The notes below the pieces were generated by a model that did not search any database, was not told the origin of the DNA, and saw only the letters and a list, made by a program, of their open reading frames with translations. Positions 53,499-61,965 of a DNA stretch of 64,000 nucleotides are shown piece after piece. The stretch is taken from positions 5,952,001 to 6,016,000 of the forward strand of contig NZ_LT607751.1 in NCBI RefSeq assembly GCF_900090305.1, read 5' to 3'. Position numbers and translations under genes: made by a program. The stretch's first letter is position 1, and each line of letters begins with the position of its first letter. Source of the DNA: Micromonospora siamensis. GTDB lineage: Bacteria; Actinomycetota; Actinomycetes; Mycobacteriales; Micromonosporaceae.

Positions 53499-54410
53499 CT
53501 ATCGCCCCCGACGTCCGGTTGCCAGCGCGGCCACCTCGGTGAGCCTCAGGGCATCGAGTTCAGCGGGTGGGAACCACGCCGCACTGGCGGTGGAACCGCC
53601 CGCCAGCTCGGTCACCCGCGCCTCGGTGGGGTCGTCCACCACCACCCGGTAGATCACCCGCACCCCGTGCCAGTCCAGCGGGCGGCCCTCCGGCCCCAAC
53701 GCTGCCGGGTTGTGCAGATTGTCCACGCCGATCAGCTCGACCACCCGACCCAACTGGCCGGCCTCCTCGACCAGCTCGCGGAGCAGCCCGGCGGCCGGCT
53801 GCTCGCCGTGGTCGGTGCCGCCACCGGGCAGGTGCCAGCGGCCGGCACCCGGGTAGCCGGGAGCGATCTGGGTCAGCAGCACCCGGCCCGTCGGATCGGT
53901 GACCAGCCCGTACGCGCCGAACCGCAGGCGCCGGTCGAGCGGCGGCTCGGCCGCGGCCGGAGTCGGGGCGGACCGGGGCAGGCCGGCCGGCAGCGGTGTG
54001 ACCGGCAGCCCGAGCAGCTCGGCGGTGAACGGCATCAGCGACAGCCCGGCGGCTTCCTCCGGGGTCACCCAGGCCAGCTCGTCGGTGCCGCCGGCGACCT
54101 CCGGCCGCAGCTCACCGGAACGGACCTCGACGTCGAAGACCAGCCGGTCCACGTGCAGCGCCACCCCCGCGTCCCGGAGGGTCAGCACGTCGGCCACCGC
54201 GGCCCGCAGCCCGGTCGGGGCCACGGTCAGCCCGGTCTCCTCGGCGAACTCGCGGACCAGCGCGTCGGCCGGGTGCTCGGCGTGCTCCAGCCCGCCACCC
54301 GGCACCTGCCACACCCCGGGGGCCGGGCCGGCCGCCGAACCCCGGGTCAGCAGCACCCGCTCACCCTCGCGCAGCACCCCGTACGCGCCGACCCGCCGCT
54401 CCTGCCGCAT
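53499..54410 (-). CDS. Double NUDIX-domain hydrolase (A)
   Basis: A 303-residue protein with two NUDIX domains. The first box is GGLEHAEHPADALVREFAEE with TGL; the second is GGTDHGEQPAAGLLRELVEE with AGQ. Both keep the GX5EX7REUXEEXGU metal-binding pattern, so both may be active on nucleotide-diphosphate substrates. The two halves are each about 150 residues. The gene follows the paralogous double NUDIX gene (54471-55418) by 60 nt and is probably co-transcribed. Confidence 0.88.
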   Translation of the reverse strand: MRQERRVGAYGVLREGERVLLTRGSAAGPAPGVWQVPGGGLEHAEHPADALVREFAEETGLTVAPTGLRAAVADVLTLRDAGVALHVDRLVFDVEVRSGELRPEVAGGTDELAWVTPEEAAGLSLMPFTAELLGLPVTPLPAGLPRSAPTPAAAEPPLDRRLRFGAYGLVTDPTGRVLLTQIAPGYPGAGRWHLPGGGTDHGEQPAAGLLRELVEEAGQLGRVVELIGVDNLHNPAALGPEGRPLDWHGVRVIYRVVVDDPTEARVTELAGGSTASAAWFPPAELDALRLTEVAALATGRRGR

Positions 54411-54470
54411 CGACCGCTTCCCCCGCCTCCCGTAGCGCTTCGTCGATCATGAGCGTACGGGAGAAGGGGC

Positions 54471-55418
54471 TCAGGTGAGCTGGGCGGCGTGCACGGCCTC
54501 GGCGGTCACCTCGGTCAGCCGGTCGGTGGGCAGGGCGCCCAGCTCGTCCCGGGCGAACCAGCGGGCCTCACAGGTCGAACCGCCGACGTCGGCCACGGTG
54601 GGCGGGGCGGGCTGGTCGACCACTACCCGGTAGAAGGCGCGCACCCCGTGCCAGTCGATCGGGTAGCCCTCCGGGCCGAGCGAGGCGGCGTCCCGGTGGC
54701 TGGCCACCCCGAGCAACTCCACCAGGCGGCCGGTCTGGCCGGTCTCCTCGACCAACTCGCGGATCAGCGCCGCGCCGGGCTGCTCGCCGTAGTCGGTGCC
54801 GCCGCCGGGCAGGTGCCAGCAGCCGGCGCCCGGGTAGCCGTCGGAGACCCGGGTCAGCAGCACCCGGCCGTCCGGGTCGGTCACCACGGCGTACGCGGCG
54901 AAGCGCTGGGCCCGGTGCAGCCCGTCGGGACCGGGCACGGCGTAGAAGGAGGGGAACTCCGGGGCCTCGTCCGGGACGATGTCGGCGGAGGAGGCGGGCA
55001 GCCCGAGCGCCCGGGCGGTGAACGAGCGCAGCGGCAGCTCGCGAGCCTCGTCCAGGGTGAACCAGCGGGCCAGGTCGGTGGGGCGGTCGACCCGTTCGGT
55101 CAGCGTGCCGCCGCGCACCGTCACCCGGTAGAGCAGCCGGTCGGTGTGGATGGTGATGCCCCGCTCGGGCAGGGCCCGCATGTCGGCGAGGACGTCGTGC
55201 AGGCCGGACACGGCGACCGAGAGGCCGGTCTCGGCGGCGGTCTCCCGGACGACCGTGTGTTTCGGGTCCTCGCCGTGGTCGACCGCCCCACCGGGCAGGG
55301 ACCACGTGCCGGGGGTGCCGGAGCGCTCCGATGCGCGGACCAGCAACACTCGGCCGACTGAATCAGCACAAACTGCGTATGCCGCGATCCTGCGGAGCGG
55401 CTCCAGCAAGGTGGTCAC
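54471..55418 (-). CDS. Double NUDIX-domain hydrolase (B)
   Basis: A 315-residue paralogue of the adjacent protein. The first box is GGAVDHGEDPKHTVVRETAA with ETGL, in which the REUXEE core reads RETAAE; the second is GGTDYGEQPGAALIRELVEE with TGQ and is canonical. GTG 55418 is chosen because family sequence (LLEPLRRIAAYAVC) starts there and a ggggaga site precedes it. It shares long similar stretches with protein A in the second half (GYPGAG.WHLPGGGTD). Confidence 0.87.
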   Translation of the reverse strand: MTTLLEPLRRIAAYAVCADSVGRVLLVRASERSGTPGTWSLPGGAVDHGEDPKHTVVRETAAETGLSVAVSGLHDVLADMRALPERGITIHTDRLLYRVTVRGGTLTERVDRPTDLARWFTLDEARELPLRSFTARALGLPASSADIVPDEAPEFPSFYAVPGPDGLHRAQRFAAYAVVTDPDGRVLLTRVSDGYPGAGCWHLPGGGTDYGEQPGAALIRELVEETGQTGRLVELLGVASHRDAASLGPEGYPIDWHGVRAFYRVVVDQPAPPTVADVGGSTCEARWFARDELGALPTDRLTEVTAEAVHAAQLT

Positions 55419-55457
55419 GGGTGCAAATTCTCCCCCGACCGGGTTACCTCCATCGAA

Positions 55458-55479
55458 AAGAGTCAGATTCCTGACTCTT
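55458..55479. promoter_or_regulatory. Inverted repeat between divergent NUDIX and PspC genes
   Basis: aagagtcag and ctgactctt are perfect inverted 9-mers with a 4-nt centre (attc). The site is AT-rich, 40 nt upstream of NUDIX B and 84 nt upstream of the PspC gene, and looks like an operator. Confidence 0.5.
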
Positions 55480-55562
55480 CGCTGGCGTCTCAGGGATCGA
55501 TCAGGGTAGGAGTCCGGGCGGTCACCGAGGTCGTCGCGCGGGCGGCGAGCGACCGTGGGGAC

Positions 55563-55850
55563 ATGACCTCCACATTCCCGCCCCAGGCCCCGTACAAGCA
55601 GCTCCGCCGACCCACCACCGACCGGATGCTGGCCGGCGTGGCCAGCGGCCTCGGTCGCTACTTCGACGTCGACCCCACCCTGGTCCGGGTGGTGTTCGCG
55701 GTGAGCGCGCTGCTCACCGGCGGCTTCGCCGCGCTGGCGTACCCGATCATGTGGTTCCTGATGCCCGAGGAGCCGGCGGGCGCCCCCGCCTGGCCGCACC
55801 CCACGGACACCGCGCCCCGACCCACCCCACCGGCCCCGCCGGCCGGGTGA
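55563..55850 (+). CDS. Small PspC-domain protein
   Basis: A 95-residue protein with a PspC domain covering residues 10-72 (QLRRPTTDRMLAGVASGLGR, then YFDVDPTLVRVVFAV) and a second hydrophobic segment, ending in a Pro-rich tail. It is the third PspC-domain protein within 9 kb. PspC proteins sit in the membrane and take part in envelope-stress response. Its stop is 7 nt from that of guaA on the other strand. Confidence 0.88.
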   Translation: MTSTFPPQAPYKQLRRPTTDRMLAGVASGLGRYFDVDPTLVRVVFAVSALLTGGFAALAYPIMWFLMPEEPAGAPAWPHPTDTAPRPTPPAPPAG

Positions 55851-55855
55851 GCCGG

Positions 55856-57414
<1,559 letters not shown>

Positions 57415-57426
57415 GGTCTGCAGATC

Positions 57427-58302
57427 CTATCCGTCGCGCCCTGGCGCCCCACCACGGCCGCCCCGCCCGCCCCTCGCGACGCCACGGTCGTCCGTGACGC
57501 CACCGCGGGGCAGTGCCAACTCGTCGTCCATGGCGGGGGCGTAGCCCTCGACGGCGCTGACCCGGCGGGCGATGAGCCCGAGCAGGACGCCGTAGACCAC
57601 CTTCGACGTGACGTCGGCAACCGTGTAGGTGATCTGCCGGGCCACCACCCCGTCGGCTGAGTCCCACATCGCCGGCATCAGGTACGCCCCGGGATAGAGC
57701 AGCCAGGAGACGACGACCAGCCAGAACACCCCCCTGGCCATGCCCCGTGCCGACTCGGGCAGCCGATGGAGGTTGCCGAAGATCACCCGCGCCACCAGGG
57801 CGAGCAGGAGCAGGAAGAAGACCGTGCTGATCAACCCCCACACCCAGAACGGCGCGTTGCGATCGACCTCGTGGAACTGCCCGACATAACCGGTGTAGAT
57901 CATCGCCAGGCCGCCGACCACGAACGCCACCCAGCTCAGGTGGAACCGACGACCGGTCACCCCCATCACGACCAACAACTGGATCAACAACACCGGCACG
58001 TCGATCGACCAGTTGACGTACCGGTAGCCATTGGAAAAGAGGGTGCCAGCCTGGACGAAGGCGGAGCCGTTCCACTGAAAGGCACCGACCCAACGTTGGT
58101 AGAGCAGCAGCAGCTCAAAGAAGGCCGACACCATCACCACCGCGGAGAGCAGCGACGCCGACTGGTAGCGAGGGGCGACGGTACGCCTGTTGACCAGGAA
58201 GTAGACCAGCCCCGCGGCCATCACTGCGAAGCCCAGGCTCAGCACGTGGGAGATCAACGTGAACTGATCCACGTTGTACGAGAACGTGTTCTCGAAGTTC
58301 AC
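57427..58302 (-). CDS. NDQ-type microbial rhodopsin (light-driven sodium pump)
   Basis: A 291-residue seven-helix opsin. Helix C reads YRYVNWSIDVPVLLIQ and gives the motif Asn97-Asp101-Gln108, with the spacing of the sodium pump KR2 (N112, D116, Q123). Helix G holds Asp230 and the retinal Lys234 in ADVTSKVVYG; Arg222 matches KR2 Arg243. Further matches to KR2 are the N-terminal NFEN, ISHVLSLGFAVM and the WLLYPGAYLMP segment of helix F. About 40 extra, Gly/Arg-rich residues follow helix G. GTG 58302 has a ggagg site. Divergent from the second rhodopsin and 12 nt upstream of guaA. Confidence 0.93.
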   Translation of the reverse strand: MNFENTFSYNVDQFTLISHVLSLGFAVMAAGLVYFLVNRRTVAPRYQSASLLSAVVMVSAFFELLLLYQRWVGAFQWNGSAFVQAGTLFSNGYRYVNWSIDVPVLLIQLLVVMGVTGRRFHLSWVAFVVGGLAMIYTGYVGQFHEVDRNAPFWVWGLISTVFFLLLLALVARVIFGNLHRLPESARGMARGVFWLVVVSWLLYPGAYLMPAMWDSADGVVARQITYTVADVTSKVVYGVLLGLIARRVSAVEGYAPAMDDELALPRGGVTDDRGVARGGRGGRGGAPGRDG

Positions 58303-58465
58303 CTCTGCCTCCGGTCGGCATCACGGCTTTCAGCTTTTGACGCGTTTATGTCGGTTTATCCTATGGATCGTCGGAGGGCACGCGGACGGATCTCCCGAAC
58401 CCGAGCCCGGAACCGACGGCGACCGGCCGGGACCGATCCGGCCCGGTGGACGGGCGGAGCGGGCG
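58303..58465. promoter_or_regulatory. Divergent promoter region between the two rhodopsin genes
   Basis: 163 nt between the two opsin starts, with an AT-rich core at about 58330-58370. The core has ttgacg (58337-58342) and tatcct (58357-58362) on the plus strand, spaced 14 nt, and two gtttat words (58344-58349, 58354-58359). It must contain the promoters for both directions. A light-responsive control is possible but not shown. Confidence 0.55.
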
Positions 58466-59173
58466 ATGAGCGGGTGGTGGCTGTGGGGCTACGTCGCCGC
58501 CATGGCGGCCGGCGCACTGCTGTTCCTGCGCTGGTGGGCCGACCCGAAGGGGGTGCCGTCGGTCGAGTACCGGGTGGCCCTCGCAGTCCCGGTCTGGTCT
58601 GGCCTCTGGTACACCCTGCTGGCCCTCGGCGGCGGCCGCACGGACGGCGGTGGCCATCCGGTCTACTGGGCGCGGTACGCCGACTGGGCAGTCAGCGCCT
58701 CACTGCTGCTGACCGCGCTGGCCCTCACCGCGACACACGCCCTACCCCACCGGCACCCCCGGCTGCTGACGACGCTGGTCGGCGCGAACCTGGTGATGAT
58801 CCTCAGCGGCCTGCTCGGCGACCTCGCCGTCGATCCATGGAGCCGATACCTTCTCTTCGGGTTCGGAGCTCTCAGCCTGCTCGCCATCCTCACCTTGATC
58901 TACGGACCGCTCCGCGCCGTCGCCCGCCGGCAGCCGACCGAGCTTTACCGGGCCTATCGGGAGGCGGCCCTGCTGCTCGGCGCGCTCTGGCTCGGATACC
59001 CCGTGTTCTGGTTGCTCGGGCCCTCCGGCGTGGGGCTGCTCGGCGGCACCACCGACACGGCCCTGTTCGTCCTGTTGTCCGTCGCGTCCAAGGTCGGCTG
59101 GGGAGCCCTCGACCTCGCCCGGCTCCGCGAACTGGGCGCGCGGCACGAACTCCCACTCGGATCAACCCGGTGA
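58466..59173 (+). CDS. Second microbial rhodopsin (xenorhodopsin-like, D-S-A motif)
   Basis: A 235-residue seven-helix opsin. Helix C is YWARYADWAVSASLLLTA, so Asp73, Ser77 and Ala84 stand at bacteriorhodopsin positions 85, 89 and 96. The retinal pocket Trp74, Trp175, Tyr178 and Trp182 is intact, as is the retinal Lys209 in VASKVGWGALDL. The usual Asp four residues before the Lys is Ser205. Asp216, seven residues after the Lys, and the ending LDLARLREL match Anabaena sensory rhodopsin and xenorhodopsins. ATG 58466 follows cggag. It overlaps the Blh gene by 4 nt. Predicted inward H+ pump or sensor. Confidence 0.88.
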   Translation: MSGWWLWGYVAAMAAGALLFLRWWADPKGVPSVEYRVALAVPVWSGLWYTLLALGGGRTDGGGHPVYWARYADWAVSASLLLTALALTATHALPHRHPRLLTTLVGANLVMILSGLLGDLAVDPWSRYLLFGFGALSLLAILTLIYGPLRAVARRQPTELYRAYREAALLLGALWLGYPVFWLLGPSGVGLLGGTTDTALFVLLSVASKVGWGALDLARLRELGARHELPLGSTR

Positions 59174-60213
59174 CCGTCCCCGCCGCCGGCGACGCCGCAT
59201 GCACCGCAGCGGACAGCGGGGCCCGAACCGCCTCCCCGCCGTACGCCACCGGCGCAGGAGGTGCGGGCACCCGCCGAGTGCTGTCCCGGTCCGGCGGAGC
59301 CGCCACACTGGTGGCACTGGCACTGCTCGTCCTGGCCCCCGTCCTGCGCCGGTACGACCTGGGCGCGTCCCCGCCGTACCTCGTCGCCGGGCTGCTCCTC
59401 GGCCTGCCGCACGGGGCGGTCGACCACCTCGTGCCGGCCTGGCGGTCGACCCGGACGCGCCCCCTGCGCACCCGGCTGGCGGTACTGCTCGGCTACGCCA
59501 CGATCGCCACTGCCGCCCTGCTGGCGTTCCGGGCCGCCCCGACCCCGGCGACCCTCACCTTCCTCGCCCTCTCGGTCCTCCACTTCGGCACCGCCGACGA
59601 GGGATTCCACGCCGAACGCGCCGGGCGGCCGATCCGGTACCCGGTGTCGGGGGTCCTGGCCCGCGGCGGCCCGCCGGTGGTCGTACCCCTGGCACTGTGG
59701 CCCGGGACGGTGGATCCGCTGATGACATCGGTGGCCCCCGGCGCCGCGGCCCTGCTCACCGTCGAGGTCCGGCTGCTGGCGGCGGCCGGGCTGCTGCTGG
59801 CGGTGACGGCGACCGTCGTCCGCGCGCTACGGGCCGGCCGGACGGCCGAGGCCGGTGAACCGGTCCTGCTGATCCTGCTCTTCGCCGCGGTGCCACCCGC
59901 GCTGGCCGTCGGCGCCTACTTCGCCGCCTGGCACTCGACACGGCACGTCGCCCGGCTGCTGTCCGATGACCCCGCCAACCGGGACGATCTGGCCGCCGGC
60001 CGCCTCGGGCCGCCGGTACACCGCTTCATCCGCCGGGCGGCGCTGCCGTCGCTCGCCGCGGTCGCCGTCCTGGCGGCACTGGTCGGCGGGCCGGCCGATC
60101 CGCTGCCGGCCACCGTCGCCGTCCTGGCCGCGCTGACCGTTCCGCACGCGGCGCTGGTGGCCTGGACGGACCGGTCCGGATCCGCCGGCACCCCTCGCCA
60201 CGACCACAGCTAG
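59170..60213 (+). CDS. blh: Brp/Blh-family beta-carotene 15,15'-dioxygenase (retinal synthase)
   Basis: A 347-residue membrane protein with about eight to ten helices. The four likely iron ligands are His81 in GLLLGLPHGAVDH, His138 in LHFGTAD, and His255 and His259 in YFAAWHSTRHVARLL; TVPHAALVAWTD near the end is also typical. The enzyme cleaves beta-carotene into two retinals, the chromophore of both rhodopsins. GTG 59170 overlaps the rhodopsin stop (GTGA). An extension of about 45 residues precedes the first helix. The TAG stop shares a CTAG with the convergent GMC gene. Confidence 0.9.
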   Translation: MTVPAAGDAACTAADSGARTASPPYATGAGGAGTRRVLSRSGGAATLVALALLVLAPVLRRYDLGASPPYLVAGLLLGLPHGAVDHLVPAWRSTRTRPLRTRLAVLLGYATIATAALLAFRAAPTPATLTFLALSVLHFGTADEGFHAERAGRPIRYPVSGVLARGGPPVVVPLALWPGTVDPLMTSVAPGAAALLTVEVRLLAAAGLLLAVTATVVRALRAGRTAEAGEPVLLILLFAAVPPALAVGAYFAAWHSTRHVARLLSDDPANRDDLAAGRLGPPVHRFIRRAALPSLAAVAVLAALVGGPADPLPATVAVLAALTVPHAALVAWTDRSGSAGTPRHDHS

Positions 60214-61907
60214 TGGCGCAGCGCGGCCGGGGCGTCCGCCGGGACGGCCGGCGCCCGCGGCGGGACCGGGTCGAGCCGGCGGTACGGCGCGCCGAGCGGC
60301 GGCCGGGGATCCTCCTCGCCCTTGTTCGGCCAGAACGACATCGCCCGCTCCGCCTGCGCGGTGATCGTCAGCGACGGGTTGACGCCCAGGTTCGCCGAGA
60401 CCGCCGCCCCGTCCACGACGTGCAGCCCCGGGTGCCCGAACACCCGGTGGTACGGGTCGACCACCCCGTCGGCCGGGGTGGCTCCGATCGCCGCGCCGCC
60501 GAGGATGTGCGCCGTCATCGGGATGTTGAACGGCTCGGTGAGCGCGCCGCCGGGCGTACCGCCGATCTCCTCGGCGAGCAGCCGGACGGCCTGGTTGCCG
60601 GCCGGGATCCAGGTCGGGTTCGGCGCGCCGTGACCGGGACCGGCCACCAGCCGCCGGCCCAGCGGGCCGCGCCGGAACCGGGTGGTCAGCGAGTTGTCCA
60701 CCGACTGCATCACCAGGGCGATCACCGTCCGCTCGGACCAGCCCCGCACCGACAGCATCCGGGCGGCCAGGCCCGGCTGCCGCAGGATGCTGCCCAGCCA
60801 GCGGCGGACCCGGTGCGGCCCGCCGTCGACCAGCAACGACTGGAGCAGCCCCATCGCGTTGGAACCCCGGCCGTAGCGGACCGGCTCGATGTGGGTCTGC
60901 GGGTCCGGGTGGAACGAGCTGGTGATCGCCACCCCCTCGGTGAAGTCGGTCCCCGCGGAGCGGGCCCGCTGCCGGGGCACCGACGCGCCGAGGATCGCCT
61001 CGGAGTTGGTCCGGGTCAGCTCGCCCAGTCGCGGCGAGAGGCCGGGCAGCGCGCCGGTCGCCCTCATCTCGTGCAGCAGCCGCTGGGTGCCGAGCGCGCC
61101 GGCCGCGAAGACCACCTGGTCGGCGTGGAGCACCTGGCGCCGCCTGCGCAGCCAGGCGCCCGTCCGCTCGGTGTGCACCTCGTAGCCGCCACCGGCGGCG
61201 GGGCGGACCGCGGTCACCGTGGTCAGCGGGTGGACCTGGACGCCGAGCTTCTCGGCCAGCCAGAGGTAGTTCTTGACCAGGGTGTTCTTGGCGCCGTGCC
61301 GGCAGCCGGTCATGCAGGAGCCGCAGTGCGTGCAGCCGGTGCGCTCCGGCCCGGCCCCGCCGAAGTACGGGTCGGCGACCCGCTGCCCGGGCCGGCCGAT
61401 GTGCACGCCCACCGGGGTGGCGTGGAAGGTGTGCCCCACCCCCATCCGCTCGGCCACCGACCGCATCACCCGGTCGGCGCCGGTGTGGACCGGGTACGTG
61501 GTGACGCCCAGCATCCGCTTCGCCTGGTCGTAGTGGGGGGCCAGCTCGGCCCGCCAGTCCGTCACGTCCCGCCACTGCGGGTCGGCGTAGAAGGCGTCCA
61601 GTGGCTCGTAGAGGGTGTTGGCGTAGACCAGCGAGCCGCCGCCCACCCCGGCCCCGGAGAGCACCATGACGCCCCCACCGGCGCTCCGGTCGGCCGACCG
61701 GAGCAGGGTGATCCGTTGCAGGCCGTAGCAGCCCAGCCGCGGCGCCCAGAGGAAGCGGCGCAGCCGCCAGGAGGTCTGCGGGAACTCGTCGTCGGCGAAC
61801 CGCCGGCCGGCCTCGAGCACCCCGACGGTCCAGCCCTTCTCGGCCAGCCGCAGCGCGGTGACGCTGCCGCCGAAGCCGGACCCGATGACGAGCACGTCGT
61901 ACCGCAT
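60210..61907 (-). CDS. GMC-family FAD oxidoreductase (cholesterol oxidase-like)
   Basis: A 565-residue FAD enzyme. The N-terminal dinucleotide motif is VIGSGFGGSVTALRLAEKGW; GAGVGGGSLVYANTL and the C-terminal HILGGAAIG with NPSLTITAQAER are typical of actinobacterial GMC oxidases annotated as cholesterol oxidase. Cys192-x2-Cys195-x2-Cys198-x3-Cys202 forms a ferredoxin-like cluster. The substrate is not known. ATG 61907 has no clear ribosome site. It ends within the same CTAG as the Blh gene. Confidence 0.85.
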   Translation of the reverse strand: MRYDVLVIGSGFGGSVTALRLAEKGWTVGVLEAGRRFADDEFPQTSWRLRRFLWAPRLGCYGLQRITLLRSADRSAGGGVMVLSGAGVGGGSLVYANTLYEPLDAFYADPQWRDVTDWRAELAPHYDQAKRMLGVTTYPVHTGADRVMRSVAERMGVGHTFHATPVGVHIGRPGQRVADPYFGGAGPERTGCTHCGSCMTGCRHGAKNTLVKNYLWLAEKLGVQVHPLTTVTAVRPAAGGGYEVHTERTGAWLRRRRQVLHADQVVFAAGALGTQRLLHEMRATGALPGLSPRLGELTRTNSEAILGASVPRQRARSAGTDFTEGVAITSSFHPDPQTHIEPVRYGRGSNAMGLLQSLLVDGGPHRVRRWLGSILRQPGLAARMLSVRGWSERTVIALVMQSVDNSLTTRFRRGPLGRRLVAGPGHGAPNPTWIPAGNQAVRLLAEEIGGTPGGALTEPFNIPMTAHILGGAAIGATPADGVVDPYHRVFGHPGLHVVDGAAVSANLGVNPSLTITAQAERAMSFWPNKGEEDPRPPLGAPYRRLDPVPPRAPAVPADAPAALRH

Positions 61908-61965
61908 GAACGCATCATTACCGACGGGTAGCGGTCGCGCCAGGGTCGGTTTTCGCGCGATCATG

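Follow-up and report, generated by a model that had tools for sequence, protein, structure and literature searches.

A transferable Micromonospora cassette of two divergent rhodopsins and a retinal synthase, with predicted opposite ion transport by a sodium-pump candidate and a xenorhodopsin

Opsins of Micromonospora are already in print (PMC5765111, PMC5531490). The former lists 'proteorhodopsin' for nine type strains and 'SRII' for four, with both labels given to M. siamensis, M. coxensis, M. halophytica and M. echinofusca and 'proteorhodopsin' also given to five others. Outside the genus, Parvularcula oceani has three rhodopsins, PoXeR, PoNaR and PoClR, in one genome; the authors linked inward transport by PoXeR to Pro in place of D212, by which the second negative charge is lost, and they also raised the question, still open, of why bacteria should retain pumps that move protons inward (PMC5118547). 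Another xenorhodopsin, BcXeR, has a chain of three waters in its L state that ends at Ser211 (PMC13093656), and among the rhodopsins with the NDQ motif, Subgroup 2 is defined by a Glu in helix B and includes ErNaR, which pumps Na+ even at pH 5 (PMC11006869). Here we describe a three-gene cassette (57427..60213, no strand assigned) in M. siamensis, a species from peat-swamp soil with a genome of 6.25 Mb in one sequence record (PMC5765111). It lies in a window of 64,000 nucleotides, the whole stretch of DNA that was analysed (contig NZ_LT607751.1, positions 5,952,001 to 6,016,000). The reading that we favour, with a probability of roughly 60%, is that of a transferable chromosomal phototrophy cassette, in which opsin 1 would export Na+, opsin 2 would import H+ and Blh would provide retinal for both, and which is swapped at the site between guaA and a GMC oxidoreductase gene.

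Opsin 1 (57427..58302, minus strand, 291 amino acids) and opsin 2 (58466..59173, plus strand, 235 amino acids) both match the Pfam family Bac_rhodopsin (PF01036; E = 8.3e-41 and 9.8e-42, respectively), and their starts face away from each other across a divergent intergenic region of 163 bp (58303..58465, no strand). The third gene, blh (59170..60213, plus strand), encodes a Brp/Blh beta-carotene 15,15'-dioxygenase of 347 amino acids when read from a GTG start, and matches Pfam BCD (E = 2.1e-46) and NCBIfam blh_monoox (TIGR03753; 166.2 bits, cut-off 95.25). Only from that GTG start does it overlap opsin 2, by 4 bp (59170–59173); in the database, the copy of the protein begins 47 residues downstream, but the N-terminus MT-PA of the long form is also found in two homologues. 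Profile matches far beyond chance thus place three adjacent genes at the position given by the first-pass annotation, including, given the GTG start, the second, plus-strand rhodopsin that it had described as overlapping a Brp/Blh synthase. A retinal-binding Lys, whose absence from either protein had been named beforehand as a refutation, is present in both (K234 in opsin 1 and K209 in opsin 2). In the complete genome of 6,250,119 bases, no PF01036 match was found beyond these two opsins; heliorhodopsins were not searched for.

On its left, the cassette adjoins guaA, encoding the glutamine-hydrolysing GMP synthase (55858..57414, minus strand; an open reading frame with an NCBIfam match of 766 bits, cut-off 400), and on its right a GMC oxidoreductase reading frame (60210..61931, minus strand), which is cholesterol-oxidase-like with 546.9 bits, under the cut-off of 850 of that model; these profile matches bear out the flanks that had been claimed. 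Trees of the flanks and of the cassette were built from 11 syntenic genomes. By its flanks, the nearest relative of the window among them is M. mirobrigensis (G061; protein identity of 99% for guaA and 97% for GMC), a species to which M. siamensis has been described as highly related (PMC5765111). When the DNA of the two was compared in steps of 250 bp, the flanks were mostly 92–99% identical (range 86–100%, with 97–98% along most of guaA) and the cassette 66–83%, and the shift falls at both cassette ends. Synonymous divergence (dS) between the same two genomes is 0.08 for guaA and 0.12 for GMC, vs 0.68 for opsin 1, 0.58 for opsin 2 and 0.61 for blh, a roughly five- to eightfold rise within the cassette, whereas in another pair (G024 and G044) the dS of the flanks (0.08–0.12) and of the cassette (0.10–0.16) are in agreement. 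The flank tree joins the window to G061 (support 100) and the cassette tree joins G061 to G058 and G059 (support 100), and in approximately unbiased tests neither tree is compatible with the data of the other region (p = 9e-7 for the cassette tree on the flank data and p = 2.7e-4 for the flank tree on the cassette data). The GC content at third codon positions is 0.89–0.91 in the cassette vs 0.97 in the flanks. Because of the identity trough, the contrast in dS and the mutually rejecting trees, one or the other of the two species seems to have obtained its cassette from another lineage.

Among 160 Micromonospora genomes, 24 carry an opsin over the cut-off, with opsin 2 in 23, opsin 1 in 17 and both in 16. 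Weaker Bac_rhodopsin matches in three further genomes (G006, G023 and G109; 20.7–21.8 bits, cut-off 24.6) were rejected as opsins. The divergent unit of opsin 1 and opsin 2–blh occurs in 14 genomes, 11 of which have it between guaA and GMC; the remaining nine opsin 2 genomes comprise four with opsin 2–blh at that site, two with opsin 2 alone there and three with a more distant opsin 2–blh elsewhere. Twenty guaA–GMC sites without opsins were chosen by hand from the 152 genomes in which GMC was matched (14 opsin-free genomes, G072 and five genomes with opsins elsewhere), and 18 of them are direct junctions with 94–209 bp between the match ends. Synteny thus finds the full cassette present at the site in 11 genomes and wholly absent from these 18 of the 20 sampled sites. 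Together with the exchange between close relatives, this suggests that the cassette comes and goes at guaA–GMC and is passed from one member of the Micromonosporaceae to another there; for other genera of the family, its distribution is taken from protein matches, such as one in Plantactinospora sp. GCM10030261.

Some of these sites hold other arrangements. In G072, which has no opsin above the cut-off, a Blh match between guaA and GMC (L186:2008-2754) spans query residues 90–335 only and is likely a relic of the cassette. In G135, where opsin 1 occurs alone and elsewhere, the site contains a 4.6-kb gene (L189:2777-7360) for a protein of 1527 amino acids that carries a caspase domain at its N-terminus (43.2 bits for PF00656 and 29.1 bits for the PADLOC caspase model); cargo other than the cassette is thus housed here as well. 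G135 also shares with G065 and G078 a second arrangement, in which opsin 1 and a different type of blh (46–47% identity) are divergent neighbours, and neither guaA nor GMC is present in the stretches fetched around these loci (L047, L049 and L050).

The first-pass annotation had called the pairing of the two opsins unusual, which holds outside the genus but not inside it. From the best 80 of 124 xenorhodopsin loci, 70 lie outside Micromonospora, and no relative of opsin 1 was found in the flanking stretches retrieved for them, which extend to 8 kb at most and are shorter for some loci. Fifty of the 70 were passed on to a whole-genome search, which covered 49 genomes; in these, an NDQ rhodopsin was found in three and an NTQ rhodopsin in two. 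The NDQ partner is thus present in 3/49 xenorhodopsin genomes outside vs 16/23 inside the genus (Fisher p = 4e-8, the genomes not being independent), and P. oceani provides a precedent for the pairing (PMC5118547). An uncultured Pseudokineococcus (L079, L197), also an actinobacterium, has relatives of both opsins, with 58% and 63% identity, on different contigs, and is a possible source or sister lineage.

Opsin 1 is predicted to be a sodium pump of the NDQ type (NaR), as had been claimed for it: N97, D101 and Q108 are all there in helix C, together with R94, with D230 as the Asp four residues before the retinal Lys (K-4), and with K234. The N, D and Q and the Asp at K-4 are kept in 17/17 copies of the genus and in all 120 listed of 1103 homologues, its own copy being included in both counts. 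Furthermore, its Glu63 in helix B aligns without gaps to ErNaR Glu64, which places opsin 1 with the Subgroup 2 pumps; the equivalence to KR2 L74 was assigned through the ErNaR alignment, KR2 not being aligned to opsin 1 residue by residue. Glu at this position is found in 17/17 genus copies and in 101 of the same 120 listed homologues. Among solved structures, IaNaR and ErNaR are nearest by sequence, followed closely by the chloride pump ClR, and the predicted model (pLDDT 90.1) matches the folds of ClR, ErNaR and KR2; the fold cannot separate these three, but the residues can. A chloride pump was considered, the best fold match being an NTQ pump of this kind, and was rejected on the NDQ motif. 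In the light, opsin 1 would most likely export Na+ and, given its likeness to ErNaR, perhaps also at acid pH.

For opsin 2, the nearest solved sequences are those of Anabaena sensory rhodopsin (ASR) and BcXeR, at 162–167 bits (167 for ASR and 166 for BcXeR), and the next other entry reaches 92 bits. Its model (pLDDT 91.6) fits the fold of BcXeR best (template-modelling scores 0.90/0.94), followed by that of ASR. Sequence scores and fold, rather than a tree of all rhodopsin families, thus place it with the xenorhodopsins, which agrees with the earlier proposal of a different rhodopsin of the inward-pump or sensor type. A sensory rhodopsin II in the halobacterial sense was rejected, being a weaker match and having no adjoining transducer. 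The residues examined are E34, R70, D73, S77, A84, S205, K209, W212, G213 and D216, among which the alignment predicts D73 as the counterion, A84 at the donor site (the BR D96 position, with no Asp), K209 as the retinal Lys and D216, seven residues after it (K+7), as the acceptor site, and E34 aligns with ASR E36 (numbered as in PMC5118547). The Asp at K+7 and the Glu in helix B, both found in pumping xenorhodopsins, are therefore present; D73, D216 and E34 correspond to D74, D216 and E35 of PoXeR (PMC5118547).

The residue counts come from 155 aligned rows with 139 distinct sequences, 37 of the Micromonospora type (loci L032–L077 and hits P0001–P0020, among which P0002 is labelled Plantactinospora) and 102 others; ASR and BcXeR are among the latter, as is a distant row whose K-4 residue is Asp. 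The counterion Asp, the retinal Lys and the acceptor Asp are present in 37/37 Micromonospora-type sequences, and Glu stands at the site of Glu34 in 36/37, the other one having a gap. At K-4, the BR D212 position, Ser replaces Pro in opsin 2 (S205) and in 33/37 of this set altogether (Pro in 4/37), vs 100 Pro, one Ser (P0042) and one Asp among the 102 others; the loss of the negative charge, which is the property common to xenorhodopsins, holds for opsin 2 too. Trp replaces Phe at K+3 in 37/37 vs 3/102, and Gly replaces Ser at K+4 in 12/37, including opsin 2 (Ser in the other 25/37), vs 4/102. A FastTree phylogeny was built from 143 rows, 12 having been dropped for more than 45 gaps or identity and some proteins still being doubled; it contains xenorhodopsins plus one distant row, whose single long branch forms the root. 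In it, the sequences with Ser at K-4 form one group (support 0.968) within a wider clade of support 1.0. Pro is found outside that group in M. phaseoli, in two strains once assigned to Verrucosispora together with Micromonospora sp. C95, and in the uncultured Pseudokineococcus, without a resolved order among them, which suggests that the change from Pro to Ser arose once. Opsin 2 thus appears to be a xenorhodopsin frame with an altered floor of the Schiff base and an altered cytoplasmic relay. A second, divergent type of opsin 2 (42–44% identity) is found in three genomes (L051, L052 and L053 in G111, G099 and G069) at another locus with its own blh; it has His for the helix-C Arg (BR R82) and Met for the Ser before the retinal Lys.

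The membership of Blh in the Brp/Blh dioxygenases is reflected both by the curated cut-off, which it passes, and by its conserved His residues (H81, H86, H138, H147, H255, H259 and H326), invariant in 12 aligned rows, among which the protein of the window itself appears twice. In the genus, Blh was found in 25/160 genomes, that is, in 24/24 with opsins above the cut-off and in 1/136 others (G072; Fisher p = 1e-27, the genomes not being independent). Retinal can be shared in trans, because the sole blh of G065 and of G078 adjoins opsin 1 and is remote from opsin 2. As for the substrate, the M. siamensis genome has a cluster at ~0.87 Mb in which a gene of the phytoene desaturase family (TIGR02734; 520 bits, cut-off 238) is joined by a polyprenyl synthetase gene and an SQS_PSY gene, the sole phytoene-synthase-family match of the genome; the latter two are crtE- and crtB-like by the company they keep, no naming model being over its cut-off. 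A lycopene cyclase of the PF05834 type lies at 3.82 Mb (241 bits), and the heterodimeric lycopene cyclase TIGR03462 has no match in the genome. The first-pass annotation had expected beta-carotene to come from elsewhere, and the phytoene-synthase-family gene and the lycopene cyclase gene are indeed outside the window, which was not itself searched for phytoene desaturase; its 'self-contained' photosystem is so from beta-carotene onward but not upstream of it. Beside the crt genes (L066:2800-9346) are a MerR/B12-binding regulator, whose CarH match is below the cut-off, and an open reading frame that looks photolyase-like by eye; these neighbours suggest that the supply of carotenoids is controlled by light.

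From these parts, the following scheme could be drawn. Blh would cleave beta-carotene into retinal, which both opsins would bind. In the light, opsin 1 would move Na+ out, and opsin 2 would most likely move H+ in, D73 being the sole carboxylate at the Schiff base and the proton leaving toward D216 on the cytoplasmic side; both directions are extrapolated from characterised relatives. If both opsins were run together from the divergent region, Na+ from inside would be swapped for H+ from outside with little net charge, since the two flows of charge across the same membrane are opposite, and the joint action would resemble a light-powered Na+/H+ antiporter with little change in potential. The most specific version, a two-protein light-powered Na+/H+ exchanger that is co-expressed with one retinal supply, transferred as a unit at a fixed site and built on a Ser-for-Pro subclade of xenorhodopsins, is only tentative and in our judgement rather unlikely in full.

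Several points weigh against the cassette as a pair of opposed pumps, or against its transfer. Opsin 2 has Ser at K-4, where ASR, BcXeR and the published account of PoXeR have Pro, and Gly (G213) at K+4, the position of BcXeR Ser211, at which the cytoplasmic water chain ends. It could be a weak pump or serve as a photochromic sensor, and the sensor ASR matches it with a score as good as that of BcXeR. The two opsin genes are separable, with 7/24 opsin genomes having opsin 2 only and 1/24 opsin 1 only, and net exchange would thus not be their sole use. Across the divergent regions of 14 cassettes, no shared operator or sigma-70-type promoter over the scan threshold was found. By eye, several of these regions show a TAnnnT-like core, with no alignable motif; the gap between crtE and crtB has a similar look, on which we rest nothing. 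In mammalian cells, the sodium-pump rhodopsin from Micromonospora sp. CNB 394-2 gave only 1–2 pA, with a weak membrane signal (PMC5531490). Overall GC content does not shift one way (0.66, 0.72 and 0.78 in the cassette vs 0.72 and 0.75 in the flanks), and among the five genes constraint is weakest in opsin 2 and blh, with a median ratio of nonsynonymous to synonymous divergence (dN/dS) of 0.47 and 0.44, respectively, vs 0.20 for opsin 1, 0.13 for guaA and 0.22 for GMC.

The main rival, to which we give a minor but real chance, is that opsin 2 is an ASR-like photochromic light sensor and that opsin 1 alone does the ion work. It would suit the equal scores of ASR and BcXeR as well as the helix-G differences of opsin 2 from ASR and the pumping xenorhodopsins. 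However, the gene adjoining opsin 2 is blh and no transducer, and the complete genome has no match to the ASRT family (PF07100), another transducer being possible; nor is ASRT associated with opsins in the genus (10/24 genomes with opsins vs 44/136 without; Fisher p = 0.48). It is improbable that the locus is an ordinary phototrophy island, where the sodium pump would add membrane potential in the light and opsin 2 would be a decaying passenger. Although none of the five genes exceeds opsin 2 in dN/dS and several genomes have one opsin only, the median for opsin 2 is well under 1, it is present and free of internal stops in 23/24 opsin genomes (opsin 1 being present in 17/24), and D73, K209 and D216 are kept throughout the distinct Micromonospora-type sequences. 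Least credible of all is faster evolution in place, by relaxed or diversifying selection and with no exchange, as the source of the low cassette identity: dN/dS of opsin 2 and blh is above that of the flanks, but dS is raised too in the same genome pair (0.58–0.68 vs 0.08–0.12), flanks and cassette agree in dS between G024 and G044, and a locally raised mutation rate alone would not alter the topology, where the conflict is strongly supported.

Leaving the cassette aside, two neighbouring genes at 53499–55799 of the window each seem, by eye in the list of open reading frames, to have two Nudix-type motifs.

The transferable phototrophy cassette that we favour is made of known kinds of protein; new are the linked arrangement of putatively opposed pumps and the Ser of opsin 2 at the BR D212 position, and the evolution of the cassette is somewhat more interesting than its parts. 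The literature searched yielded no description of a linked unit of sodium pump, xenorhodopsin and Blh, or of a Ser-for-Pro xenorhodopsin variant at that position, and further papers may exist. The cassette exchange, the extra Glu of opsin 1 and the Ser of opsin 2 go beyond the first-pass annotation. Since a likely inward pump is here linked genetically, in a genus that can be cultured, to a sodium exporter candidate and a retinal enzyme, removing genes would allow a test of what the pump is for. The natural variants at guaA–GMC within one genus (both opsins, opsin 2 only, partial blh or nothing) offer a ready comparative experiment, and the change from Pro to Ser is a natural test of the role of the D212 position in inward pumps.

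Compared with known systems, opsin 1 resembles ErNaR and Subgroup 2 in the NDQ motif, the Asp at K-4, the helix-B Glu (E63 in opsin 1, E64 in ErNaR) and the Leu at the KR2 Q78 site (L67 and L68, respectively; PMC11006869), but it is actinobacterial, has a divergent region in common with a xenorhodopsin and is 44% identical in the fold match. The CNB 394-2 protein, already expressed, is likewise described as a sodium-pump rhodopsin from the same genus (PMC5531490). Opsin 2 shares with BcXeR, NsXeR and PoXeR the counterion Asp, the lack of Asp at the D96 position, the uncharged D212 position and the cytoplasmic acceptor Asp, and with ASR and PoXeR the helix-B Glu. It differs from ASR and BcXeR in having Ser for their Pro at K-4 and Trp for their Phe at K+3, and from BcXeR also in having Gly for Ser at K+4, NsXeR not being in the alignment. 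ASR is as close in score and similar in fold, with the same counterion and acceptor residues, yet has Pro at K-4, and the M. siamensis genome has no ASRT-family gene. The 'proteorhodopsin' and 'SRII' of PMC5765111 are probably the same genes as the cassette opsins; the labels there are general, whereas here they become an NDQ sodium-pump candidate and a xenorhodopsin within a cassette of defined structure that has undergone exchange. The genome of P. oceani likewise encodes both a sodium-pump rhodopsin and a pump for inward proton transport (PMC5118547); the opsins of the Micromonospora cassette are divergent neighbours that stand together with blh.

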